Notes under the pieces: generated by a model
Database searches by the model: none
Seen by the model: the letters and a program-made list of their open reading frames with translations, nothing else
Told to the model about the DNA's origin: nothing
Shown here: piece by piece, positions 29,026 through 57,783 of the stretch
Numbering within the stretch: position 1 is the first letter of the stretch
How the letters are laid out: each line of letters starts with the position of its first letter
Program-made: the position numbers and the translations under genes
DNA from: Ancylobacter aquaticus
Lineage (GTDB): Bacteria > Pseudomonadota > Alphaproteobacteria > Rhizobiales > Xanthobacteraceae
Reading direction: 5' to 3'
Assembly (NCBI RefSeq): GCF_004339465.1
Contig: NZ_SMFY01000001.1
Span: 496,001 to 560,000 of the forward strand
DNA: 64,000 nt

Positions 29026-30312
29026 ATGGGTCCGAGCGTGAGTAAGGCCGGTTGGCGGCGTGCGGGAGCCGGTTTGCTCGGCGTCGGGATGACGTCCGTG
29101 CTGCTGGCGGCGTGCTCGGAAGAGAATAAATATGTCCCGCCCCCGCCGGCGCAGGTCACGGTCGCCACGCCCGTGCAGCAGGCGGTGACGCGCTATCTCG
29201 AATTCACCGGCAACACGGCGTCCATCAACTCGGTCGATCTGGTCGCTCGTGTCGAGGGCTTCCTGATGTCGATCGACTACAAGGATGGCGCGGTGATGAA
29301 GAAGGGCGACCGCCTCTTCCTCATCCAGCAGAACACCTATCAGGCCGATCTCGACCAGGCCAAGGCGCAGCTCGCCTCGGCCGAGGCCCAGCTCACCAAC
29401 AACCAGGCCGAGTTCCAGCGCCAGTCGACCCTCGGCCAGCAGGATTTCTCCTCGCAGGCGACCGTCGACAAGGCGCGCGCGGCGCGGGACGAGGCCGCCG
29501 CCTCGGTAGACGCGGCCAAGGCCAATATCGAGATCGCCACCATCAATCTCGGCTACACCACGGTGCAGGCGCCGTTCGACGGCATCGTCACCCGCCATCT
29601 CGCCGATGTCGGCCAGCTGGTGGGCCATACCCAGCCGACCAAGCTCGCCACCATCGTGCAGATGAACCCGATCTACGCCTATTTCAACATCGGCGAGAAT
29701 CAGGTCCTGCGCATCAAGCAGGCCCTGGCGGCGCAGGGCCGGACCATCGAGGATGTGAAGCAGATCGAGATTGATCTCGGCCTGCAGGACGAGGGCGACG
29801 CTTACCCGCACAAGGGCCGGCTCGACTATGTGTCGCCGGAAGTCGACCCCGCCACCGGCACGCTGCTGGTGCGCGGCGTGTTCGACAACCCGACGCTCCA
29901 GCTGCTGCCGGGCCTGTTCGTGCGCGTGCGCATTCCCGCCAAGCAGATTCCCGACGCCTTCCTCGTCGCCGATACGGCGATCGGCACCGCGCAGCAGGGC
30001 AAATATGTGCTGGTGGTGAACAAGGACGACGTGGTCGAGCAGAAGATCGTCACCGTCGGCCAGCAGATCGGCGACAACCGCGTGATCGAAACCGGCCTTG
30101 CGGCCGGGGATCGCGTGGTGGTGGGCGGCATCCAGCGGGCGACGCCGGGCTCCAAGGTGGCGCCGGTCGAGGTCACGGCGGCGGGCAGCGCGGCGGCGAC
30201 GCCCGATGCGGCCAAGAGTGATGCGGCCAAGAGTGACGCGGCCAAGAGTGACGCGGCCAGCACCGACGCCTCGAAGACCGGGGCCGCGACCCCGGACAAG
30301 CCGGCGAACTGA
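29026..30312 (+). CDS. RND efflux membrane-fusion (adaptor) lipoprotein
   Basis: A 428-residue periplasmic adaptor of the AcrA/MexA class. The N-terminus has a lipobox (VLLAAC, Cys at about residue 28). The order then is a barrel-lipoyl segment (TGNTASINSVDLVARVEGFL), an alpha hairpin (residues about 100-165, Ala/Gln-rich), the second lipoyl half (TTVQAPFDGIVTRHLADVGQ) and a beta-barrel. The ATG at 29026 is chosen because GGGAGAG lies upstream. The C-terminal 40 residues are a repetitive AAKSD-type tail not typical for adaptors. It pairs with the pump encoded 148 bases downstream. An outer-membrane factor is not encoded here. Confidence 0.9.
   Translation: MGPSVSKAGWRRAGAGLLGVGMTSVLLAACSEENKYVPPPPAQVTVATPVQQAVTRYLEFTGNTASINSVDLVARVEGFLMSIDYKDGAVMKKGDRLFLIQQNTYQADLDQAKAQLASAEAQLTNNQAEFQRQSTLGQQDFSSQATVDKARAARDEAAASVDAAKANIEIATINLGYTTVQAPFDGIVTRHLADVGQLVGHTQPTKLATIVQMNPIYAYFNIGENQVLRIKQALAAQGRTIEDVKQIEIDLGLQDEGDAYPHKGRLDYVSPEVDPATGTLLVRGVFDNPTLQLLPGLFVRVRIPAKQIPDAFLVADTAIGTAQQGKYVLVVNKDDVVEQKIVTVGQQIGDNRVIETGLAAGDRVVVGGIQRATPGSKVAPVEVTAAGSAAATPDAAKSDAAKSDAAKSDAASTDASKTGAATPDKPAN
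30205..30264 (+). repeat. four 15-base tandem units at the 3' end of the adaptor gene
   Basis: GATGCGGCCAAGAGT is repeated three times with single C/T changes, and a fourth diverged copy follows, encoding repeated D-A-A-K-S. The following non-coding 100 bases contain further degenerate GCCGGCGAA-type repeats. Confidence 0.85.
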
Positions 30313-30460
30313 CGGCCGGCGAACGGACCGTCGAAAAACTCATCGCCGGCGAATTCACCGCCGGCGAACCCACCGCCGAACGACGCACCGAACGCCAGCC
30401 ACTATCCCACGACGACCCCGCGACTTTCGCTCCGGCCCGCTTGAACCGAAGGCCCGTCCC

Positions 30461-40863: not shown

Positions 40864-41464
40864 CCGGGCATCCGGCCTGTCGCCGGTGCGCTCGAGGCCG
40901 GGATGCCGGCCTTCGCCAGGTAATCGTGGGACCTCCCCGCCGGCGCGGTGCAAGCCGCGCTCAGGGCGCGGGACGTCCCTGCCGGCTCGCGCCCCGTCCG
41001 CATCCGCGTGATCGGGCCGCCCTCTGCGTGGTAAATCTGCAACGTTGGGAGAGATAGGTGCGGTTGGAGCGCCAGGCAGGCGCCGTCGGCAGAATCCGCC
41101 TATCGCGGTACCGTGGTCTTCGCGCATAGTGCGGCGGGGACTCGCGCATTGGCGAGAGCAGTGCTTGGGCGGTACGACATGCTGGACGAGAACGCGAAGT
41201 GTGCCGGCACGCGAATGTCGAGGCGGCCAACCATTCGCCGACCTGCCTCGCCCGTGTCCCTGACGGCGCACACCGGGGAGGCCGCCTGTCGCCCCTTGAG
41301 CAACCGCCGGCGGTATGCCGGAAACAAATGAAAAATTGTGCGGGACGCGCGCCTTTCGGCGGAGCGGCAGATCTTGGAAGCGTGTTGCGGCGGGGGTGCC
41401 CGTCAGAGGCGCGTCTCCCGGCCCGGCTCCGGCGCGCGGTTACCGACCATGTGGGAATGTGCAG
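40864..41464. other. 601-base gap upstream of the autotransporter gene
   Basis: There is no convincing protein gene; short frames on both strands are arginine- and alanine-rich shadows. A hairpin occupies its first 45 bases. The last 150 bases are in frame with the autotransporter but lack a good start. The gap is long enough for a promoter region or a small RNA, but I see no recognisable one. Confidence 0.5.
40867..40907 (+). terminator. hairpin just after the second transglutaminase gene
   Basis: GGCATCCGGCCT pairs with AGGCCGGGATGCC (one bulged G), with a 16-base loop, starting 4 bases after the stop. No T-run is present, so it is either a weak terminator or an mRNA end stabiliser. Confidence 0.45.
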
Positions 41465-44400
41465 ATGAAGCGTTTCGAGACTGTCGATAGCCGTGCAGCT
41501 TTCTGCGTCGCGACCCTTGCCGGCAAGGGCCCCGGCGGGGCGCGGCGGCGCGCGTTCCGGCGCGGGCTGCTGCTGTCATCGGCGTTGATCTCGGCGCTGA
41601 GCCTCGCCGCTCCCGCGAGCCATGCCGAGCCGCTCCCTGCCAACCCCTACTGGAACGGCGCGGTCGACCAGCCGGGCGGCGCTGAAGTCGTCGGCGGGGC
41701 GGGCACGTGGAATGCCGCCAACACCAACTGGACCGACGCCGCCGGGGCCACCGCCGGGACGTGGGACGGCGCGCTGGCGATCTTCGCGGGCACGGGCGGC
41801 GCGGTGAGCGTGGCCGGCGCGCCGGGCGTGATTTCCGTCACCGGCATGCAGTTCGACGTCGACGGCTACGCGCTTTCCGGCGACAGCATCACGCTGGCTG
41901 CGATTTCGGGCCAGACGGGTATTTCCGTCGCCACCGACGCCAGCGCCACCATCGGCTCGGCACTTATCGGCACCACCGGCCTTGAGAAGATCGGCGACGG
42001 CACGCTGGTCCTGTCGGGCAACAACACGTATTCCGGCGGCACCACGGCCAGCGCCGGCACGCTGGAGTTCACCGGCAACAACACGCTGGGCGGAGACATG
42101 GTGGCGTCCAACGGGTCGCTCATCTTCTCCGGCGGCACCTCCACAGCCCAAGCCCCCATTATCGGAAGCGATGCCGGCACGTCGGGCTCCCTGACGGTGA
42201 CCGGGGAGAGCACGAGCCTCGCTCTCAGCTCTGAGCAAGGGGTGTTGGTCGGCAATTACGGCACCGGCACCATGACCATTTCCGATGGCGCGACCGTGAC
42301 GGCGATCCGGGTCTCACTTGGAAGCGAAGTCGGCGGGGACGGCACCGCCACGGTGACGGGAGCGGGATCGAACCTGACCCTCCAGGAAGGTCTCGTCGTG
42401 GGCAGTGATGGCGCCGGCACGCTGACCATTTCCGACGGCGGCGCGGCGAGCGCCGTCTTCGTCGCGGTCGGCTCTGGAGACGGCTCGTCGGGCTCGCTCA
42501 CGGTGACGGGGGAGGACTCGACCGTCACCAGCTCGGGCGGGGTGACCGTCGGCGGATCCGGCGTGGGCGCGATGACCATTTCCCATGGCGGCTCGGTGAC
42601 CGGCACGTACGGCGTGATCGGGCAGTATGCGACGGTTATGTCCACGGCAACGGTGACCGGCGCCGGCTCCAGCTGGACCAATAGCGGCTCTCTGACGATC
42701 GGCGCGAATACCGGTGCCAAGGGAACGCTCACTGTCGCCGCCGGCGGCAAGGTGTCGAGCACATCGGCCGCTCTCGGTAGCTACCGGGGATCCCAGGGCA
42801 TCGTGACGGTCACGGGTGCCGGGTCCACGCTGGACCTGGCGGGCGGCTCCTTCACTGTCGGGGTCGCGGGCGAGGGCATCGTCACGGTCGCCGCCGGGGG
42901 CACGGTGCTGAGCGGCTATGTCACAATGGCCCTTTCCGAGTACGGCACGGGCGCCATCACGGTGACGGGCGCCGGCTCGCTGTGGGATGCTGGCACCAAC
43001 TCGGTCTCCATGGGCTCTTACGGCACCAATGCGAGCATCACCGTCGAGGACGGCGGCACCATGGCGGCGAGCTCTTTCTACCAGGACTACTCGCCGGGGA
43101 CCCGGTCAATCACCCTCGACGGCGGCACGCTGCGGGCTACGGCCACCCAGTCGTACTTCCTCTCCGGCTTCGATGCGGGCGATGTCACGCTCGCGGCGGG
43201 CGGCGGCACGATCGATTCCAACGGGTTCGACATCGGCGCCGACAGCGTGCTCGGCGGCGAAGGGGCGCTGACCAAGACCGGCACCGGCACGCTAACGCTG
43301 ACCGGCGCCAACACCTATACCGGTGGCACCGTCATTTCCGGCGGCACGCTGCAGATCGGCAATGGCCGCGCGGCGGGGTCGATCCTTGGCGATGTGACCA
43401 ATAACAGCGTGCTGGCGTTCAACCGCAGCGACGCATTCACCATGGCGGGGGCGATCTCCGGCACCGGCGCGGTGGTGCAGGCGGGCAGCGGCACGCTGTA
43501 CCTGACCGGCGCCAACACCTATTCCGGCGGCACCACCATCACCACCGGCACGCTGCGCGTCGACACCGCAAACGCACTCGGCAGCGGCGGGCTGACGGTC
43601 GGCGAGGCCGGCACGTTCCGCGCCAGCGGCACGTTTGACTTTGGCGGCGCGGTGGTACTGGACGGCACCGCCTCCACGGCGGGCACGTTCGAGGTGGACG
43701 CATCGCAGGCGCTGACCCTCTCCGGCGTGATCTCGGGGGAGAGCGGCCTGACCAAGACCGGCGACGGCCTGCTGATCCTGACCGCGACCAACACCTTCAC
43801 CGGCGTGACGACCATCTCGGACGGCACGCTGCAAATCGGCGATGGCGGCACCACCGGCTCGCTGGCCGGCGAGGTGGTCAACAATGCGAGCCTGGTGTTC
43901 GACCGTTCCGGCACCTACGCCTTCACCGACGCTGTCACCGGCAATGGCACGGTGAGCTTCACCGGCGGCGGCACGGTGCTGTTCTCCGCCTCCTATGGCG
44001 GGACCATTTCGGTGGACGATGCCAATGTACAGCTGGCGTCCGGGTCGACCAACAGTTCGGCCTTCACCCTCAACGAGGGCGGCGTGCTCGGCGGCACGGC
44101 GACCATCGGTGCCCTCACGGTGAACAGCGGCGGCACGGTGGCGCCGGGCACTTCGCCCGGCACGCTCACCGTGAATGGCCCCGTCGCCTTCAATGCCGGC
44201 TCGACCTACGAGGTGGACATCACGGCGGACGGCGCGCACGACCTGATCACCGCCACCGGGGCGGTGACTTTGTCCCCGGATGCGGGCGTCGAGGTGGTGG
44301 CGACGCCGGGGAACTATTCCTCGATGGGCACGATCACCATCCTTTCCACGTCCAGCACGCTGACCGGCACCTTCGGCCCCGCGACGTCGGACTTCGCCTT

Positions 44401-45604
44401 CCTGACGCCGGAACTGACCTATGACGCGCAGAACGTGTTCCTGACCCTGGTCAGCAACGGCAAGAACTTCGTCGACTATGCCCGCACGCCGAACCAGGCG
44501 GGCGTGGCCGTGGCGGCGCAGGCGCTGGGCGGCGGCAACACGCTCTATGAGGCGATCTTCTCGCTGCCGGAAGGCGCCGTGGCGCCGGCCTTCAACCAGC
44601 TCACGGGCGAGGTCTACACCTCGGCCCGGACGGTGATCCAGCAGCAGTCGATCTATCTGCGCGACGCGGTCGGCAGCCGGCTGCGCCAGTCGCTTACCGC
44701 CCCGTCCGCCGGCGCCCTGTCCTATGCGGCGAAAGCGGCCGGCCCGGCCTCGGCACAGCTGGGCCAGGGCTTCACCCCGACGCTCTGGGCGCAAGGCTTC
44801 GGCGGCTGGGGCGAGACCTCGGGCAATGCCAACGCCGCCTCGGTCAGCAACACGGTCGGCGGCGTCTTCGGCGGCGTCGACGTGGCGGTGCTCGACAATG
44901 TGAGGGTCGGCCTCATCGGCGGCTACAGCCGGACCTCGTTCGATGTCGACGCCCGCTCGTCCTCGGGCTCGATGGATAATTACGATATCGGCCTCTATGC
45001 CGGTGCTCAGTTCGACGCTGTCGCGTTGCGCGGCGGCGCCTCCTACACCTGGCACGACATATCGGCGTCGCGCTCGGTGTTCTTCCCCGGCTATTACGGC
45101 GCCAACGACGCGGACTACACGGTGGGCACCACCCAGCTGTTCGGCGAGATCGGCTACGACATGTCGGTCGGGGCCTATGCCTTCGAGCCCTTCGTCGGCC
45201 TCGCCTATGTCAACATATCCGGCGACAGATTCACCGAAAGCGGGACGATCGCCTCGGCACTTTCGGTCGACGCGCCTTCGCAGGGCACGTTCTACTCCAC
45301 CCTGGGCATTCGTGCGGCCACCAGCTTCACGGTGGCGGGCCGCACCCTCACCACGAGCGCGACGCTGGGCTGGCAGCATGCCTTTGGCGACACGGATGCG
45401 TCGGCCACCATGCTGTTCGCCAATGGCGGCACCACCCCGTTCGGCGTGCAGGGCGTGCCGATCGCGGAAGACGTGGCGCTGGTCGGCGTCGGGCTGGGCT
45501 ACCAATTGTCCGAGAGCGCGGAACTGCAGTTCAACTATGCCGGCCAGCTGGCCGGCGAGGCCAACCAGAACACCTTCAGCGCGCAGTTCTCCCTCTCTTT
45601 CTGA
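41465..45604 (+). CDS. type V autotransporter with PATR and T5SS/PEP-CTERM-type repeats
   Basis: A 1379-residue outer-membrane protein. A long, Arg-rich N-region is followed by the signal core LLLSSALISALSLAAPASHA. The passenger carries repeated blocks of about 50-60 residues of the form GTMTISDGATV...GTATVTGAGS (residues about 230-530), like T5SS/PEP-CTERM-associated repeats. PATR beta-strand repeats follow (LTKTGTGTLTLTGANTYTGGT and relatives). Residues about 1100-1379 are the beta-barrel (TPTLWAQGFGGWGE) ending in FSAQFSLSF with the required terminal Phe. A surface adhesin is likely. The ATG at 41465 is chosen by the signal peptide; its ribosome site is poor. Confidence 0.9.
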   Translation: MKRFETVDSRAAFCVATLAGKGPGGARRRAFRRGLLLSSALISALSLAAPASHAEPLPANPYWNGAVDQPGGAEVVGGAGTWNAANTNWTDAAGATAGTWDGALAIFAGTGGAVSVAGAPGVISVTGMQFDVDGYALSGDSITLAAISGQTGISVATDASATIGSALIGTTGLEKIGDGTLVLSGNNTYSGGTTASAGTLEFTGNNTLGGDMVASNGSLIFSGGTSTAQAPIIGSDAGTSGSLTVTGESTSLALSSEQGVLVGNYGTGTMTISDGATVTAIRVSLGSEVGGDGTATVTGAGSNLTLQEGLVVGSDGAGTLTISDGGAASAVFVAVGSGDGSSGSLTVTGEDSTVTSSGGVTVGGSGVGAMTISHGGSVTGTYGVIGQYATVMSTATVTGAGSSWTNSGSLTIGANTGAKGTLTVAAGGKVSSTSAALGSYRGSQGIVTVTGAGSTLDLAGGSFTVGVAGEGIVTVAAGGTVLSGYVTMALSEYGTGAITVTGAGSLWDAGTNSVSMGSYGTNASITVEDGGTMAASSFYQDYSPGTRSITLDGGTLRATATQSYFLSGFDAGDVTLAAGGGTIDSNGFDIGADSVLGGEGALTKTGTGTLTLTGANTYTGGTVISGGTLQIGNGRAAGSILGDVTNNSVLAFNRSDAFTMAGAISGTGAVVQAGSGTLYLTGANTYSGGTTITTGTLRVDTANALGSGGLTVGEAGTFRASGTFDFGGAVVLDGTASTAGTFEVDASQALTLSGVISGESGLTKTGDGLLILTATNTFTGVTTISDGTLQIGDGGTTGSLAGEVVNNASLVFDRSGTYAFTDAVTGNGTVSFTGGGTVLFSASYGGTISVDDANVQLASGSTNSSAFTLNEGGVLGGTATIGALTVNSGGTVAPGTSPGTLTVNGPVAFNAGSTYEVDITADGAHDLITATGAVTLSPDAGVEVVATPGNYSSMGTITILSTSSTLTGTFGPATSDFAFLTPELTYDAQNVFLTLVSNGKNFVDYARTPNQAGVAVAAQALGGGNTLYEAIFSLPEGAVAPAFNQLTGEVYTSARTVIQQQSIYLRDAVGSRLRQSLTAPSAGALSYAAKAAGPASAQLGQGFTPTLWAQGFGGWGETSGNANAASVSNTVGGVFGGVDVAVLDNVRVGLIGGYSRTSFDVDARSSSGSMDNYDIGLYAGAQFDAVALRGGASYTWHDISASRSVFFPGYYGANDADYTVGTTQLFGEIGYDMSVGAYAFEPFVGLAYVNISGDRFTESGTIASALSVDAPSQGTFYSTLGIRAATSFTVAGRTLTTSATLGWQHAFGDTDASATMLFANGGTTPFGVQGVPIAEDVALVGVGLGYQLSESAELQFNYAGQLAGEANQNTFSAQFSLSF

Positions 45605-45651
45605 GCGAACGGCGCGTGCTCTGCGCAAGCGACCGCACCTGACCGAGTGAT

Positions 45652-51117: not shown

Positions 51118-52722
51118 CTATTCCGCCGCAAGAACCATCCCCGGCTGCGCGCTCTCTGGCTGCGCGCCTTGTGCCTCGCCCGAAGCCGCCTCAAAACGGG
51201 CGAGCTGGGCGGCAAACCACCTCGCCAGCCGGCGGGCGGCCGCGCCATGATCGCTATGGCTGGCGAAGGCCTGCGCCGGATCGAGCAGGCCGGGGTCGAC
51301 GCCCTCCAGGGCGGCCGGCACCTCGAAACCGAAATGCGGATCGGTGCGCCATTCGCCCGAGGCCAGCTCGCCGGCCTGCGCCGCGTCGACGAGGCGACGG
51401 CTGGCGTCCGGCGGTACGCGCTGGCCTGTGCCGGCAGCCCCGCCGACCCAGCCGGTATTGACCAGCCAGCAACTGGGCGCGTGCTGTGCGAGGAGCCGGC
51501 GCAGCCGCGGCTCGTGACACTCCGCCAGCGCGGGGACGCCGTCCGTGGTGGAAAGGCAATGGCCAAGCGCCTGTGCCGGGTTCAGCCGGGCGATGGCGGG
51601 GAGCGCGCCGCTTGCGTCCTGCACCAGTAAGAACAGATGCGCCGGCGGGCCCATGGCAGGGTGAGGGGCGCCGTCCGAGGGGTCTGCGGGCAGGATGATC
51701 CGGGAAGCGGCAGTGCTTGCCGCTTCGGTCAGGTCGGGCGTGCGGCTGGCCGGATCGAGGGCGACATTTTCCAGCACGGCGGCAAAGCCCCGCGCCGCGC
51801 GGGCCGCCTCTGCGGAGTGGGCGAGGTCGGCGGGCCGGGCATAGGCGCCTGCCTCCAGCGCGATAAGCCCCTCCTCGCCCCAGCCGAGCGCGCCGTCGGC
51901 GATGCGCGCCGACACGCCATCGTCCGTCAGCCCATTCGCCAGCGCGCCCGCCAATGCACTTTTGCCCGTGCCGGCGCCGCCGAGGAACAGGGCGACATTG
52001 CCGGTCGGGCCGGTGGTGGCGGCCGCTTCGAGCGGCAGTACCTTCTGTTCCATGAGCGGGCCGACGAGCAGGTGCGCGAGCGCCGCGCGGATCACCTCGC
52101 TGCGGGCCGTGCCGGCGATGAGCGCCAACCCGTTGGCGGGGTCCAGCGCGAGTGCGCCGTCGGCCGCGACCCCATGGGTCTCGGGGGTGGGGCGGAAGCC
52201 CGGAGCGCACAACACGGTGAGGCGGGTCGCCATCTCTCCGCCCTCCGCCGCCGCGCAGGGACGGATGAGGTGGCGCATGGACAGCGCATGCCAGGCCTGT
52301 TCGGACAAAATTCGCAGGGCAAGGCCGCGACCCGGCCCGGTCTCGACGCTCAGATCCTGCCCGAATAGCGTGCGGCTGCCGACATAAGCCAGCATGTCGG
52401 CCTTGAGCGCCTCGAAATGCGTGCGCGTAAGAGGCGCGACGCTGTTTGGGGCGGGGGCCTCCTTGCCGGCCTGCGGGGCAGGCGTTGCCGGGGCCGCACC
52501 GCTTTCGCTCGCCGCGTCGTCGACGAGAGCGAGGCTGATCTCCCGGCCGCTCTGGGCGGTGGAGACGACCAAAGCGCCGGTGGTGGAAAGCCTCGCTTCG
52601 CCCCGCGCCACGGCACGCTCGCACAGGGCCGCCATGCCGAGGTTCCAGAACACCCGGCCGGTGCCGGCGGGATCAAGGCCCTCAAGGGTGGAATGGTCGC
52701 TCGGCGCGCCGGTTTGCTTCAC
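51118..52722 (-). CDS. degenerate phosphoenolpyruvate carboxykinase (ATP) homologue, probable pseudoenzyme
   Basis: A 534-residue protein with full-length PEPCK similarity: NEARVAAGGAL-type start (RGEARLSTTGALVV), FEALKADMLAYVGSRTLFGQD, VLENVALD, ALPAIARLNPAQALGHCLS, SCWLVNTGWVGGAAGTGQR and EWRTDPHFGFEVP. The P-loop GGAGTGKS (residues 248-255) is intact, but most catalytic elements are lost. YAGEMKK reads ARSEVIR (Lys pair gone). The Mn-binding His (MHCSAN) reads PLEAAAT. DDEHGW reads DGALGW. EGGCYAK reads EAGAYAR. About 20-30 residues around the TAKxAGTE loop are missing. GTG start with AGGAGG 8 bases upstream. pckA normally occupies this place beside chvI, so this is likely a retired pckA with a new role. 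Confidence 0.85.
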   Translation of the reverse strand: MKQTGAPSDHSTLEGLDPAGTGRVFWNLGMAALCERAVARGEARLSTTGALVVSTAQSGREISLALVDDAASESGAAPATPAPQAGKEAPAPNSVAPLTRTHFEALKADMLAYVGSRTLFGQDLSVETGPGRGLALRILSEQAWHALSMRHLIRPCAAAEGGEMATRLTVLCAPGFRPTPETHGVAADGALALDPANGLALIAGTARSEVIRAALAHLLVGPLMEQKVLPLEAAATTGPTGNVALFLGGAGTGKSALAGALANGLTDDGVSARIADGALGWGEEGLIALEAGAYARPADLAHSAEAARAARGFAAVLENVALDPASRTPDLTEAASTAASRIILPADPSDGAPHPAMGPPAHLFLLVQDASGALPAIARLNPAQALGHCLSTTDGVPALAECHEPRLRRLLAQHAPSCWLVNTGWVGGAAGTGQRVPPDASRRLVDAAQAGELASGEWRTDPHFGFEVPAALEGVDPGLLDPAQAFASHSDHGAAARRLARWFAAQLARFEAASGEAQGAQPESAQPGMVLAAE

Positions 52723-52841
52723 GGTCGGCTCCTCCTACGCATGACAGGAGGCGGGACCATGGGAGTCCAAAGGGGCGTTTTGCGTGAGTTTCCGGGTCGA
52801 TTATGTGGCCAAAACGGGAAAAGTCGACGCGTAAGACGGGT

Positions 52842-53591
52842 TCACACCGCCGCCGCCCGGGCGGCATTGGCACGTTCGACCAGCGCCGCGCGCATCTCCT
52901 GCGCAGTGGTGACGCGCTGGCCGAAGTCGAGCCGGCGCACCTGCACCCCGTCCATCAGGTCGCAGCCCTCGGGGTCGAGGCCGGCCAGCTTCCAGTGGCC
53001 GGGGCCGGTGCCGATGAGATGGAGCGCATAGAGCTGGACAGCATCAGCATGGTCAGCATTCATGTGCGCGACCGCGCCTTCCTCGGCGGCCAGCACCCCG
53101 GCGGCATCGTCGACGCGGGTGGAGAGTGCGGCGCCCTCGACGTCCTTGATCCGCCCAAAGCCCGCGACCAGATGGGCGCTCTCCATCTCCATGCGGTAGA
53201 ACGCGAAATCGCTGAAGCCGACGAAGCCGGCCGCATCCGGGTGCCGGGCGAGAAAGCGGCGGCGCGCCGTGGCCAGCATGTCGGGAGCGCTGATGACCTC
53301 GATGCGGCCCTTCAGCCCGGCCCGGGCGCCCTGCAATTCGTCGCCCGGCCGATGCTCATCGACCAGCAGCGAGACGCGGGTGTCGCGCTGCAGGTTGGCG
53401 GTGTGGCGGGCGAGCCGGGAGAGCAGTAGCAGAGGGGCACCATCGGGCAGTGTAGCGAGCTGGACCAGCGAGGCGTAGGGGCCGCCATCGGCATCGAGGG
53501 TCGCCAGGGCGGCGGTCTGGCTTTCGCGGATCAGGCGCTTAACCGCTTGTGCGGGGTCAAAAGCGTCTGACGTGGAAGAGGACTCTGACAT
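52842..53591 (-). CDS. HugZ-like / pyridoxamine-phosphate-oxidase-fold protein
   Basis: A 249-residue cytoplasmic protein. The split-barrel domain occupies residues about 12-150 (ATLDADGGPYASLVQLATL, LLLSRLARHTANLQRDTRVSLL, and FLARHPDAAGFVGFSDFAFYRM). A C-terminal DUF2470-like domain follows (EEGAVAHMNADHADAVQLYA). This combination is found in HugZ-type haem-utilisation proteins and general FMN-binding proteins. The ATG at 53591 is preferred; an in-frame start 19 codons earlier has no ribosome site. It is divergent from chvI. Confidence 0.87.
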   Translation of the reverse strand: MSESSSTSDAFDPAQAVKRLIRESQTAALATLDADGGPYASLVQLATLPDGAPLLLLSRLARHTANLQRDTRVSLLVDEHRPGDELQGARAGLKGRIEVISAPDMLATARRRFLARHPDAAGFVGFSDFAFYRMEMESAHLVAGFGRIKDVEGAALSTRVDDAAGVLAAEEGAVAHMNADHADAVQLYALHLIGTGPGHWKLAGLDPEGCDLMDGVQVRRLDFGQRVTTAQEMRAALVERANAARAAAV

Positions 53592-53779
53592 GTGGAAAGG
53601 CTGCTCCCTATATGGCCAAGAGGTGTGCGTCGCCGTGCCCGCCGTCAAGCGCTTCGCCGCAATTGGCGGGCGGGAGCGAAACGCGCTAATTTCCGCTGAA
53701 TCAGTTTGCGTGTCACATTGTGGCCACGCCGGCGGGGTTCACCCCTTCGTGTACCGCCGCCGAACAGGAAAGTGCGCAG

Positions 53780-54478
53780 ATGCCGACCATCGCTCTCGTC
53801 GACGACGATCGCAACATTCTTACCTCCGTTTCCATCGCCCTGGAGTCGGAGGGCTATCGCATCCAGACGTATACCGACGGCGCCACCGCCCTGGACGGCT
53901 TCAAGACCAATCCGCCCGACCTCGCCATCTTCGATATCAAGATGCCGCGCATGGACGGCATGGAGCTGCTGCGCCGGCTGCGCCAGAAGAGCGACATGCC
54001 GGTGATCTTCCTCACCTCCAAGGATGACGAGATCGACGAATTGTTCGGCCTGAAGATGGGCGCCGACGACTTCATCAAGAAGCCGTTCTCCCAGCGCCTG
54101 CTGGTCGAGCGGGTGAAGGCGGTGCTGCGCCGCTTCGCCCCCAAGGATGGCAGCCTGCCGCGCGAGACCGACAGCGCCAAGGTGCTGGAGCGCGGCCTGC
54201 TGCGCATGGACCCAGAGCGCCACACCTGCACCTGGAAGGGCGACAACGTCACCCTAACCGTCACCGAGTTTCTCATCCTGCAGGCGCTCGCCACCCGCCC
54301 CGGCGTGGTGAAGAGCCGCAATGCGCTGATGGACGCGGCGTATGACGACCAAGTTTATGTCGACGACCGTACCATCGACAGCCACATCAAGCGGCTTCGC
54401 AAGAAGTTCAAGGTGACGGACGACAATTTCGAGATGATCGAGACGCTGTACGGCGTCGGCTACCGCTTCAAGGAGTAG
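53780..54478 (+). CDS. chvI: response regulator ChvI
   Basis: A 232-residue OmpR-class regulator. The receiver domain carries the phospho-acceptor Asp52 in [12 protein letters not shown] and the acidic pocket DDD at residues 8-10. The C-terminal winged helix (from about residue 130) has [18 protein letters not shown]. ChvI with ChvG responds to acid and envelope stress, controlled by ExoR in rhizobia, and governs exopolysaccharide, motility and virulence genes. ATG at 53780 gives the conserved [10 protein letters not shown] start; a longer frame upstream is not used. The sensor gene follows after 7 bases. Confidence 0.96.
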
Positions 54479-54485
54479 CGGGTCC

Positions 54486-56423
54486 TTGCTCGATCCGGAA
54501 CTGACCCGGAATGGCGCCGGCCAGGCGGTCGTCGAGGACGGGGACCCGATGGACAGGTCCCGCTCGCCCGAACGGGCAGGGCTTCTCGGCGCCTTGCGCC
54601 GGGCGCGCAACTTCGTTGCGTTCAAGAGTTTTTCCAGCCTCACCCGCCGGATCGTGCTGCTCAACCTCGCGGGCATGTGCGTTCTGGTTTCGGGCATCCT
54701 CTACCTCTCCGAATTTCGAGCCGGCCTGATCGACGCGCGGGTGCAGAGCCTGATCGTGCAGGGCGAGATCATCGCCGGCGCCATCGCCGCCTCGGCGCAG
54801 GTCGAGACCAACGCCATCACCATCGACCCCGAGCGGCTGCTGGAGCTGAAGGCGGGCGAGAGTTACGGGCCTGGCGAAGAAGGCTTCGCCCCACTCGAAT
54901 TCCCGATCAATCCCGAGCGCGTTGCCCCGGTGCTCAAGCGCCTCGTGGAGCCCACCGGCACGCGGGCCCGGATCTATGACCGGGACGGTGCGCTGCTGCT
55001 CGATTCGCGCTCGCTTTATGCGCGCGGCGAAATCCTGCGCTTCGAAATGGCAGCGCCGACCACGCCCAAGCCCAACTGGATGGAGCGCGGCTGGAACAGC
55101 ATGAAGTTCTGGTTCGAGCGCGGCGACCTCCCGCTCTACAAGGAGCTGGGCCCCAATAACGGCAAGGGCTACCCGGCGGTGATAGAGGCGCTGCAGGGGC
55201 AGAAGGCCAGCGCCGTGCAGATCAACGACCGCGGGCAGGTCATCGTCTCGGTCGCCGTGCCGGTGCAGCGCTTCCGCGCCATTCTCGGTGTGCTGCTGCT
55301 CTCCACCCAGGGCGGCGAGATCGACGAGGCGGTGGCGGCCGAGCGGTTGGTCATCGTGCGCGTGTTTCTCGTGGCGATGGCGGTGATGGTGGTGCTTTCG
55401 CTTCTGCTCGCGGGCACCATTGCCGGGCCGGTGCGCAAACTGGCCGATGCCGCCGAACGGGTGCGCCGGCGGACCCGCTCGCGGGTCGAAATTCCCGATT
55501 TCACCAGCCGCTCGGACGAGATCGGACATCTCTCCGGGGCGCTGCGCGACATGACCGACGCGCTCTATTCGCGGATCGAGGCCATTGAGAGCTTTGCCGC
55601 CGACGTTTCGCACGAATTGAAGAACCCGCTCACCTCCCTGCGCTCCGCCGTGGAGACGCTGCCTCTTGCGAAGTCCGACGTCTCGCGCGGGCGGCTGCTG
55701 GAGGTGATCCAGCATGACGTGAAGCGCCTCGATCGCCTGATTACCGACATTTCCGACGCCTCGCGGCTCGATGCCGAACTGCAGCGGCAGGAATCCGAGC
55801 CGGTCGATCTTGTCCGGCTGCTCAACACCGTGGCTGGCGTGCACAATGACGTGCTGCGGGGCGACGGGGTGCGGGTGAGCCTCACCTTCGATCCGGCGCC
55901 GGGGCAGGGGCAAGGGGCGGTGACGGCCGCTACCTATGTCATCCCCGGCCATGATTCCCGCCTCGGCCAGGTGATCAACAACCTCATCGACAATGCCCGC
56001 TCCTTCTCTGCCAAGGACGGCGAGGTTCGCGTCGCCTGCCGGCGGAACCGCGACACCATTGAAATCATCGTCGACGATGACGGACCGGGCATTCCGCCGC
56101 ACGCGGTGAGCCGCATCTTCGAGCGCTTCTACACCGACCGGCCCGAGGAGCAGGGTTTCGGCCAGAACTCCGGGCTCGGCCTGTCGATCTCGCGCCAGAT
56201 CATCGAGGCCCATGGCGGACGCATCTGGGCGGAGAACCGTCCCGCAGAGGACCGCCCGCCACCGCCGGCCGCGAAGAAGCCGAGGGCCTCGCGCGCCAAG
56301 GCCAAGGTGGCCGCGCCGGCGGCTGTGACGACCGATGTGGTAAATGCGGAAGACGATATGCAGACGCCGCCGGCACCAAAATTCGCTGGCGCGCGCTTCG
56401 TCGTCCGCCTGCCGGCCAGTTGA
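54486..56423 (+). CDS. chvG: sensor histidine kinase ChvG (ExoS)
   Basis: A 645-residue inner-membrane kinase. Two membrane segments (about residues 56-80 and 298-318) flank a periplasmic sensor of about 215 residues. A HAMP linker follows (AGPVRKLADAAERVRRRTRS), then the H-box DVSHELKNPLTSLRSAVETL, N-box INNLIDNARSF, and G-boxes DDDGPGIP and GLGLSISRQI. The C-terminus is an Ala/Pro/Lys-rich tail. The TTG at 54486 has AGGAG 10 bases upstream. An ATG at 54549 (start MDRSRSPER) would give 624 residues and is an equally possible start. Confidence 0.95.
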   Translation: MLDPELTRNGAGQAVVEDGDPMDRSRSPERAGLLGALRRARNFVAFKSFSSLTRRIVLLNLAGMCVLVSGILYLSEFRAGLIDARVQSLIVQGEIIAGAIAASAQVETNAITIDPERLLELKAGESYGPGEEGFAPLEFPINPERVAPVLKRLVEPTGTRARIYDRDGALLLDSRSLYARGEILRFEMAAPTTPKPNWMERGWNSMKFWFERGDLPLYKELGPNNGKGYPAVIEALQGQKASAVQINDRGQVIVSVAVPVQRFRAILGVLLLSTQGGEIDEAVAAERLVIVRVFLVAMAVMVVLSLLLAGTIAGPVRKLADAAERVRRRTRSRVEIPDFTSRSDEIGHLSGALRDMTDALYSRIEAIESFAADVSHELKNPLTSLRSAVETLPLAKSDVSRGRLLEVIQHDVKRLDRLITDISDASRLDAELQRQESEPVDLVRLLNTVAGVHNDVLRGDGVRVSLTFDPAPGQGQGAVTAATYVIPGHDSRLGQVINNLIDNARSFSAKDGEVRVACRRNRDTIEIIVDDDGPGIPPHAVSRIFERFYTDRPEEQGFGQNSGLGLSISRQIIEAHGGRIWAENRPAEDRPPPPAAKKPRASRAKAKVAAPAAVTTDVVNAEDDMQTPPAPKFAGARFVVRLPAS

Positions 56424-56436
56424 GGCGCGGGAGGAC

Positions 56437-56916
56437 ATGGCGCAGGCGAAGGACAGCGCGGCGGCGGCTCTTCAGCCCACGGTGCACGCCTCTTGCGTCC
56501 GCATCGGCGACCGGGGGGTGCTGATCCGTGGTGCCTCGGGGGCGGGAAAGTCGCATCTGGCCTTCGCACTCATCCTGGCGGGGCGGGGCGGGCTGGCGCC
56601 GCCGGTCGAACTGGTGGCTGATGACCGAGTGTTTCTTTCGCGCCGGGGCGCCCGGCTGTTCGCCTCCGCGCCGCACTATCTCGCCGGGCTGATCGAGATA
56701 CGCGGCCTCGGCCTGCGGCGCCTGGCCTTCACGGCGGAGGCGGCGGTCGATCTGGTGGTCGATCTCGGCGCTGACGACGCGGCCCGCCTGCCGGAGCCCT
56801 CGGCGCGGCGTGTCGCGATCGAGGGGCTAGAAATCGAGCGTCTGCCGGTGTTTGCTGGCGGCGATGGGGTGCAGCAGGTGCTGGCGCTGCTCCTCACCGA
56901 GTCCGCGCCGGACTAG
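56437..56916 (+). CDS. hprK: HPr kinase/phosphorylase, short alphaproteobacterial form
   Basis: A 159-residue protein equal to the catalytic C-terminal domain of HprK only, the normal form in alphaproteobacteria. Walker A is GASGAGKSH (about residue 33). The Asp pair in VADDRVFLSRRG and the HprK signature IEIRGLGLRRLAF are present. It phosphorylates HPr on a serine and can reverse the reaction. Start ATG at 56437 follows GGGAGG directly. The gene lies 13 bases after chvG and upstream of EIIA-Man and HPr, coupling PTS signalling to the ChvGI locus. Confidence 0.95.
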   Translation: MAQAKDSAAAALQPTVHASCVRIGDRGVLIRGASGAGKSHLAFALILAGRGGLAPPVELVADDRVFLSRRGARLFASAPHYLAGLIEIRGLGLRRLAFTAEAAVDLVVDLGADDAARLPEPSARRVAIEGLEIERLPVFAGGDGVQQVLALLLTESAPD

Positions 56917-57097
56917 GTTCTCCCGGTGCGGCAGCGGGTCGCTTGCGGCCTCGCGCGGATTTTCCCCAGCGGTACTTGCCATTCATGTGCAGCGCAACGA
57001 TGATGTGCGCCCCGCAAAGGGGGCGGCGGGCACTCCCATCTCAATGCCTCCGGCAGTAGCATTGCAGTCGCGTCGAACCGACGTGCGGCGGAGCAAG

Positions 57098-57499
57098 ATG
57101 ATAGGTCTCGTACTCGTAACGCACGGACGCCTTGCCAGCGAATTCCGCGCCGCGCTCGAACATGTCATGGGACCGCAGTCCCACATCGAGACGATCACCA
57201 TTGGCCCTGACGATGACATTGAGCGGCGCCGGCAGGATATCGTCGATGCGGTCGCGGCGGTGAACAGCGGCGGCGGCGTGGTGATCCTCACCGACATGTT
57301 CGGCGGCACCCCATCCAATCTCGCCATCTCGGTCATGAACTCGCCGGATATCGAGGTGGTCGCCGGCATCAACCTGCCGATGCTGGTCAAGCTCGCCACC
57401 GTGCGCGGCGAGGTGCCGATGGGCGAGGCGGTGGCGCAGGCCCAGGAGGCAGGGCGCAAATACATCAACATCGCCAGCCGCGTACTGGCCGGAAAATGA
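57098..57499 (+). CDS. manX: PTS EIIA component, mannose family (regulatory)
   Basis: A 133-residue EIIA-Man domain protein. The phospho-acceptor His9 lies in LVLVTHGRLA, and TDMFGGTPSNLAI is the family signature. No EIIB, EIIC or EIID gene accompanies it, so it serves regulation through its phosphorylation state rather than sugar transport, as in other Hyphomicrobiales. The site GCGGAG precedes ATG at 57098. The stop overlaps the HPr start by 4 bases. Confidence 0.94.
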   Translation: MIGLVLVTHGRLASEFRAALEHVMGPQSHIETITIGPDDDIERRRQDIVDAVAAVNSGGGVVILTDMFGGTPSNLAISVMNSPDIEVVAGINLPMLVKLATVRGEVPMGEAVAQAQEAGRKYINIASRVLAGK

Positions 57500-57783
57500 G
57501 CGCCACCACGGACGCTCTGCGGCGGGAACTGGCCATCGTCAACAAGCGCGGGCTGCATGCGCGTGCCTCAGCGAAATTCGTGCAGACGGTGGAGCGCTTC
57601 GACGCGGATGTGCGCGTCACCCGCGCCGGCGAGACCGTCGGCGGCTCGTCCATCATGGGTCTGATGATGCTGGCGGCGGCGCCCGGCACGACCATTCTGG
57701 TGGAGGCCAGCGGCCCGCAGGCGCAGGCGGCCATCGAGGCGCTGGAGGCGCTCGTGTCCGACCGCTTCGGCGAAGGGGAATGA
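57496..57783 (+). CDS. ptsH: phosphocarrier protein HPr
   Basis: A 95-residue HPr. The active-site His21 lies in KRGLHARASAKFVQ. The regulatory serine is Ser52 in GGSSIMGLMML, equivalent to Ser46 of classical HPr and the target of the HprK encoded two genes upstream. It transfers phosphate from enzyme I to the EIIA-Man next to it. The overlap with manX indicates one transcript. Confidence 0.95.
   Translation: MSATTDALRRELAIVNKRGLHARASAKFVQTVERFDADVRVTRAGETVGGSSIMGLMMLAAAPGTTILVEASGPQAQAAIEALEALVSDRFGEGE

Follow-up and report, generated by a model that had tools for sequence, protein, structure and literature searches.

Recurrent loss of the phosphoenolpyruvate carboxykinase catalytic site in one bacterial genus, with the full-length protein kept under purifying selection

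Introduction

The pckA position beside chvI in Ancylobacter aquaticus is occupied by an open reading frame (ORF) that resembles phosphoenolpyruvate carboxykinase (PEPCK) along its full length and has lost residues of the active site. The locus raises the question of whether such a gene is decaying, has turned to another reaction, or is maintained for a role that outlives catalysis. A first-pass annotation, made from the sequence of the window alone (the window being the whole 64,000-nucleotide stretch of DNA that was analyzed), had proposed that a former gluconeogenic enzyme kept its ATP-binding core and became a regulatory ATP/PEP sensor, possibly tied to the neighboring HprK-HPr-EIIA-Man and ChvGI modules. 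Among the open-licence papers listed in literature searches, none presents a bacterial PEPCK pseudoenzyme in its title or abstract opening. Here we compare the locus among 30 genomes of the genus and a wider set of relatives.

Results

The gene (51118..52722, minus strand) starts with GTG and encodes 534 amino acids. A Shine-Dalgarno sequence, AGGAGG (52731..52736, minus strand), lies 8 nt 5' of the GTG, and AGGAG, GGAGG or GAGGA was found just 5' of the N-terminus in all 30 genus genomes, bearing out the strong ribosome site described at first pass. In a predicted structure model compared with known structures, the ATP-type PEPCK fold spans the whole chain. The ORF scored 234.8 bits against Pfam PF01293, above the gathering score of 26.5, and missed the NCBIfam PEPCK cut-offs in all six models listed for it (for example, 315.9 bits at best against 806, and 186.2 against 590.05 bits). 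The suggested search of the same genome for a second PEPCK, intact or otherwise, found none and returned one match only.

Residue positions are given in E. coli numbering unless the window protein's own number is stated, the roles of the residues (substrate/Mn2+ or nucleotide site) are those commonly assigned to them, and all features of the protein lie on the minus strand. At Y207, K212, K213, H232 and D269 the window copy has R, R, A, E and G. The substrate/Mn2+ site is thus lost at residues 207–213 (52084..52104), and Glu stands where the Mn2+-ligand His was at residue 232 (52027..52029). The Walker A motif GGAGTGKS (own residues 248–255; 51958..51981) is intact, including K254, and in the kinase-2 motif (51892..51897) D276 (E. 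coli D268) is present and the D269 position is taken by G277. E270 and H271 are replaced by A and L, and EGGCYAK is replaced by EAGAYAR (own residues 290–296; 51835..51855), with K288 changed to R. In the mobile lid (386–418), 9 of the 33 residues are left (remnant and edges, 51517..51564). R333 (own R341; 51700..51702) and R449 (own R435; 51418..51420), both invariant in the 30 genus proteins, are retained, as are N440, G442 and the VNTGW block (own residues 421–425; 51448..51462). The assignment of R65 is alignment-dependent (Gly in one alignment, R60 in another), and the residue is not conserved in the nearest sisters. The first-pass reading of full-length similarity with an intact P-loop and VNTGW block, and of a lost Lys pair, Mn-ligand His, second kinase-2 Asp, EGGCYAK block and TAKxAGTE loop, was therefore correct, and its picture of a former PEPCK that lost the substrate/metal site and kept nucleotide-site residues agrees with the residue table. 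The window protein combines the homologous fold with missing catalytic residues, as expected of a pseudoenzyme.

The residue table divided the 30 genus genomes into seven with a canonical copy (G003, G007, G010, G021, G022, G023, and G026), five with a partial copy (G005, G006, G012, G017, and G018) and 18 with a deeply eroded copy. K213, H232 and D269 were missing in all 18 deep copies, including that of the window, and the P-loop Lys was lost in two genomes (G001 and G011). All five partial copies had lost Y207 and K288 and had H232 and D269, and three had K213; as far as aligned residues can tell, the erosion of the site looks stepwise. Among 143 reference positions that were invariant in 15 canonical proteins, a position was retained on average in 9.66 of the 18 deep copies. 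The mean was 0.17 of 18 for six substrate/Mn2+ positions, a set picked by assigned residue roles, and none of 100,000 random draws was as low; for nine nucleotide-site positions it was 14.56 of 18 (p = 0.011). The loss is targeted at the substrate/Mn2+ residues.

In the window's clade, 36 canonical-invariant positions were wholly lost, and eight of these were re-fixed to one new residue in all eight copies, including Y207R and K212R. These re-fixed positions and the retained nucleotide-site residues are what might be expected if the ATP-binding fold had come to catalyze a different reaction (ATPase, kinase or phosphotransfer) in the pocket left empty. However, the lineages filled the pocket differently (R, H, L or D at 207; R, E or T at 212), unlike a single new active site, the metal ligands are gone, the lid was shortened in two clades, and G001 and G011 are without the P-loop Lys. 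We consider a new enzyme unlikely.

All 30 genus genomes had one pckA-locus ORF, full length and with no internal stops, as an orthologue in the same place. Outside the genus, 23 of 23 relatives and E. coli were canonical at the sites of the residue table. A family-wide scan gave a PF01293 match in 370 of 391 genomes, 340 of them outside the genus. Of these 340, 26 were weaker than 1e-185, all in assemblies of at least 110 contigs, and the rest scored as canonical, a status judged by match score. Among the 20 genomes listed out of the 21 in the family without a match, most of the complete ones belonged to g34 (five, 99–100% complete), g68 (three, 100%) and g61 (one, 98%). In the order-wide scan, 323 of 396 genomes had a PEPCK match, and five matches outside the genus were weaker than 1e-170 (G489, G511, G550, G609, and G619). 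Within the genus, 23 of 30 matches were weaker than about 1e-160, and these were the same 23 that the residue table marked as eroded; all 23 pass the Pfam cut-off yet have no canonical site. Judged largely by these scores, an eroded but retained PEPCK seems peculiar to this genus, the gene elsewhere being mostly canonical in score or absent. Three of the weaker order-wide matches (G489, G550 and G609, with PEPCK_ATP values of 1.6e-44, 9.6e-178 and 3.9e-104 in assemblies of 10–20 contigs) fall in another genus of the order (f33, g79) and are possibly another case of a decaying PEPCK. In two family genomes outside the genus (G030 and G031; L128 and L129), a pckA with canonical motifs is split over two frames, which may equally be a sequencing error or a young pseudogene.

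The number of losses was assessed with two trees. In the gene tree, built under a mixture model after removal of 107 eroded columns, the non-canonical copies fell in four places (G006/G018; G012/G029/G004/G025/G008/G028; G005/G017/G014/G015/G019; and G001/G011 with the window's clade), with canonical G026 and G022/G007/G010 between them. The branches that part the four places had support of 85–90 and were unstarred; taken by themselves, the starred branches require a single change for "deep" and two changes for "canon". In the species tree (11 proteins, two of them unidentified; 4,540 columns), eroded copies fell in six places, assuming irreversible loss and with weak backbone nodes (36, 44, 58, and 69). 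The AU test rejected a single clade of all 23 non-canonical copies on both data sets (gene p = 0.019, species p = 0.0084) and gave p = 0.033 on the gene data for the 18 deep copies as one clade. A clade of the 21 copies without G006/G018 was not rejected by the gene data (p = 0.138) and had p = 1.35e-6 on the species data. We take this to mean that the site was lost at least twice in the genus, and most likely four or more times. Independent loss steps are also supported by the sister pair G012 and G029, the former having H232 and D269 and not R65, and the latter the opposite. With the eroded columns left in and a site-homogeneous model, the eroded copies were drawn together, probably by long-branch attraction. 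Horizontal replacement is not needed for the mixed pattern, as the gene and species trees broadly agree after removal of these columns.

Selection after loss was estimated as omega under a codon model in eight eroded groups, none of which includes G013: five deep groups, each with a lost site common to its members, and three with partial copies. In the five deep groups, omega was 0.255 (G000, G024, G027, and G020), 0.142 (G002, G009, and G016), 0.135 (G004, G025, G028, and G008), 0.141 (G014, G015, and G019) and 0.188 (G001 and G011), and omega = 1 was rejected in all five (2dlnL 148–319). It was also rejected in three pairs with partial copies (omega 0.056, 0.086 and 0.092; 2dlnL 92–287). In the deep groups, chvG and recR had omega of 0.03–0.09; canonical PEPCK groups had 0.035–0.113. 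Omega of the deep PEPCK groups was 2.0–6.4 times that of chvG and recR, indicating that the constraint on the deep copies is relaxed. The eroded protein is constrained, less so than chvG and recR, and is kept as a protein under purifying selection; part of the constraint on deep copies could be avoidance of misfolding. The dN/dS comparison proposed at first pass thus gave purifying selection (omega 0.13–0.26 in the deep groups), and neither a frameshift in the window copy nor an absence of such selection, which would have spoken against a pseudoenzyme, was found.

By the NG86 method, deep pairs gave 0.21–0.52, the canonical pair G003/G023 gave 0.40, and PNPOx pairs reached 0.52. In a frame control with 10 pairs, low omega and freedom from stops coincided only in frame +1. 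Selection on an overlapping ORF was rejected, with omega of at least 1.02 in frames +2, +3, -1 and -3, frame -1 being stop-free in four of the 10 pairs. Frame -2 had omega of 0.28–0.58 because its third positions are shared with those of the real frame, and it contained 4–12 stop codons in each of the 10 pairs.

These results bear on whether the gene is dying, that is, whether catalysis became useless and a functionless ORF is decaying slowly, its frame kept open by the luck of GC-rich codons. When neutral evolution was simulated at this GC with indels ignored (200 draws for each of four distances), 3–9% of copies stayed stop-free, an outcome that would be needed in several lineages, whereas the frame is open in 30 of 30 genomes, omega = 1 was rejected in eight of eight eroded groups, and the ribosome site and the C-terminal AAE tail (below) are retained. 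Decay would account for omega above that of the neighbors, the raised GC at codon positions 1 and 2 (0.63–0.70 in eroded copies, 0.55–0.59 in canonical ones), the lid deletions and the absence of pckA from complete genomes in other genera of the family, and we regard it as distinctly unlikely. The first-pass view that the gene is maintained and is not a simple pseudogene is upheld by omega below 1 and the 30 open frames.

A PNPOx/DUF2470 ORF (52842..53648, minus strand) sits between the pseudoenzyme gene and chvI, and is followed by the cluster of chvI, chvG, hprK, EIIA-Man-like and HPr genes in ancestral order (53720..57783, plus strand). The order pckA, PNPOx, chvI, chvG, hprK, HPr, ahcY was found in all 30 genus genomes, the seven canonical and 23 eroded alike; on the other flank, recR and nhaD were found in 28 and DUF3016 in 17. 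The placement of pckA beside chvI, known from rhizobia, extends through the genus, and one report describes a comparable order in other Alphaproteobacteria (PMC2937029). An order common to canonical copies and other Alphaproteobacteria is inherited and uninformative on a new role. The proposed tie to HprK-HPr-EIIA-Man or ChvGI accordingly loses its footing, the neighbors being identical around the canonical copies and no gene association being specific to eroded ones. An ATP/PEP sensor working with these modules would be in keeping with the neighborhood and with the binding of BvrR upstream of pckA reported in Brucella (PMC9491525); however, the partners that a Brucella two-hybrid screen reported for NPr and EIIA-Man were Ppa and SucA (PMC2937029). 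Deep copies are unlikely to sense PEP because the residues lost are those of the PEP/oxaloacetate site, and the ATP-sensing part is weakened because G001 and G011 lost the P-loop lysine. We consider the sensor highly improbable. Persistence of weak PEPCK activity, at least in part-eroded copies, would fit their H232 and D269 (five of five) and K213 (three), and is the least probable reading of all, to judge from the residues, given that K213, H232 and D269 are gone from 18 of 18 deep copies, the window's included.

Other features of the window were noted. The match of the hprK-like gene (56344-56916) to the C-terminal domain of HPr kinase covers only positions 4–80 of 171, resembling the short form of Alphaproteobacteria. 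A 1429-aa ORF (41315-45604), autotransporter-like with repeats by eye, is overlapped by an antisense 778-aa ORF (43292-45628); antisense ORF overlap is common in GC-rich DNA. Two adjacent arrays of 15-bp tandem units occupy 30203-30390.

Sixty positions were invariant in all 30 genus proteins, and the sole run of three was the C-terminal AAE (codons 51121-51129). It closes the tail of the window protein (own residues 517–534; 51121..51174, minus strand), a segment whose other residues vary strongly in the window's clade and which has pLDDT below 50 from residue 517 on in the structure model. Across the 30 genomes the Ala codons varied between GCG and GCC (16:14 and 18:12), the Glu codon between GAA and GAG (20:10), and the stop codons in the ratio 18:10:2. 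Because these codons, the stop and the downstream DNA vary, the constraint acts on the peptide, and a DNA-level constraint was ruled out. Among 80 named relatives, 53 end in AAE, 14 in AA and 13 otherwise, so that 27 of the 80, and E. coli, are without the AAE end. The tail may serve as a peptide for docking or as a signal to a protease.

Matches to PPDK_N, RuBisCO-large and PEPC were present in all 30 genus genomes, ICL in 29 and malic enzyme in 27; none of these metabolic correlates cleanly separates dead from canonical copies among the 30. Outside the genus, 29 of 31 sampled relatives also matched PPDK_N; being common there, PPDK permits the loss and does not explain it. These enzymes could supply PEP without PEPCK. 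The facultative chemolithoautotroph Starkeya novella is placed in Ancylobacter. In this organism, PEP carboxylase and the enzymes of the Calvin cycle are reported to be expressed in every condition (PMC3797975). A second strong malic-enzyme match (306–327 bits) occurred in 10 of the 30 genomes, 10 of the 23 eroded and none of the seven canonical; seven of the ten belong to the window's clade, and the association may be coincidence.

Discussion

The PEPCK site was lost recurrently in one genus, with the full-length ORF kept under purifying selection. The explanation that we favor, with moderate confidence, is that PckA had a second role, non-catalytic in nature, which persists after catalysis is lost. 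Such a role would predate the losses in this genus; PEP supply through PPDK and CO2 fixation would have made PEPCK catalysis dispensable, and after the losses selection would act on the second role only. With less assurance, the second role would use the folded body and, in most lineages, nucleotide binding (Walker A, D268, R333, and R449), and the flexible AAE-COOH tail might contact a partner or protease. The loss of the P-loop Lys in G001 and G011 indicates that ATP binding is not universal. Some canonical and PNPOx NG86 values match those of eroded PEPCK pairs, which counts against the favored explanation. To go by conservation, nucleotide binding and the AAE tail appear to be the best handles on the second function. 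A broader proposal, which we put forward only tentatively and with some doubt, is that alphaproteobacterial PckA has a conserved second, non-catalytic function exerted through a PxxxxAAE-COOH-like tail, and that the genus amounts to a natural separation-of-function experiment, catalysis having been discarded several times and the second function kept.

That the active site was lost repeatedly and the whole protein retained points indirectly to a second function of bacterial PckA. Canonical, half-eroded and dead alleles of pckA all occur naturally in the genus, making such a function directly testable. A PF01293 match, or annotation as pckA, is no proof of gluconeogenesis from C4 acids, since 23 of 30 genus genomes carry a non-canonical copy.

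The window protein shares with ATP-dependent PckA (E. coli 1aq2/2pxz, Thermus 1j3b) the full-length fold, Walker A, VNTGW, R333 and R449, and its gene has the same genomic position as alphaproteobacterial pckA. It differs from the former in the absence of K212, K213, H232, D269 and Y207, the largely deleted lid and the missed NCBIfam cut-offs. Pseudoenzymes are homologues that lack activity and are retained as scaffolds or regulators, usually as a paralogue beside the active enzyme. The window protein resembles them in having lost catalytic residues with fold and selection kept; in contrast to the usual case, no further copy was found, and the loss happened repeatedly among orthologues in one genus. 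The Brucella abortus pckA pseudogene (PMC9491525) occupies the same slot by bvrR/bvrS and has likewise lost PEPCK function; it carries a premature stop, whereas the window gene encodes a full-length protein under selection.
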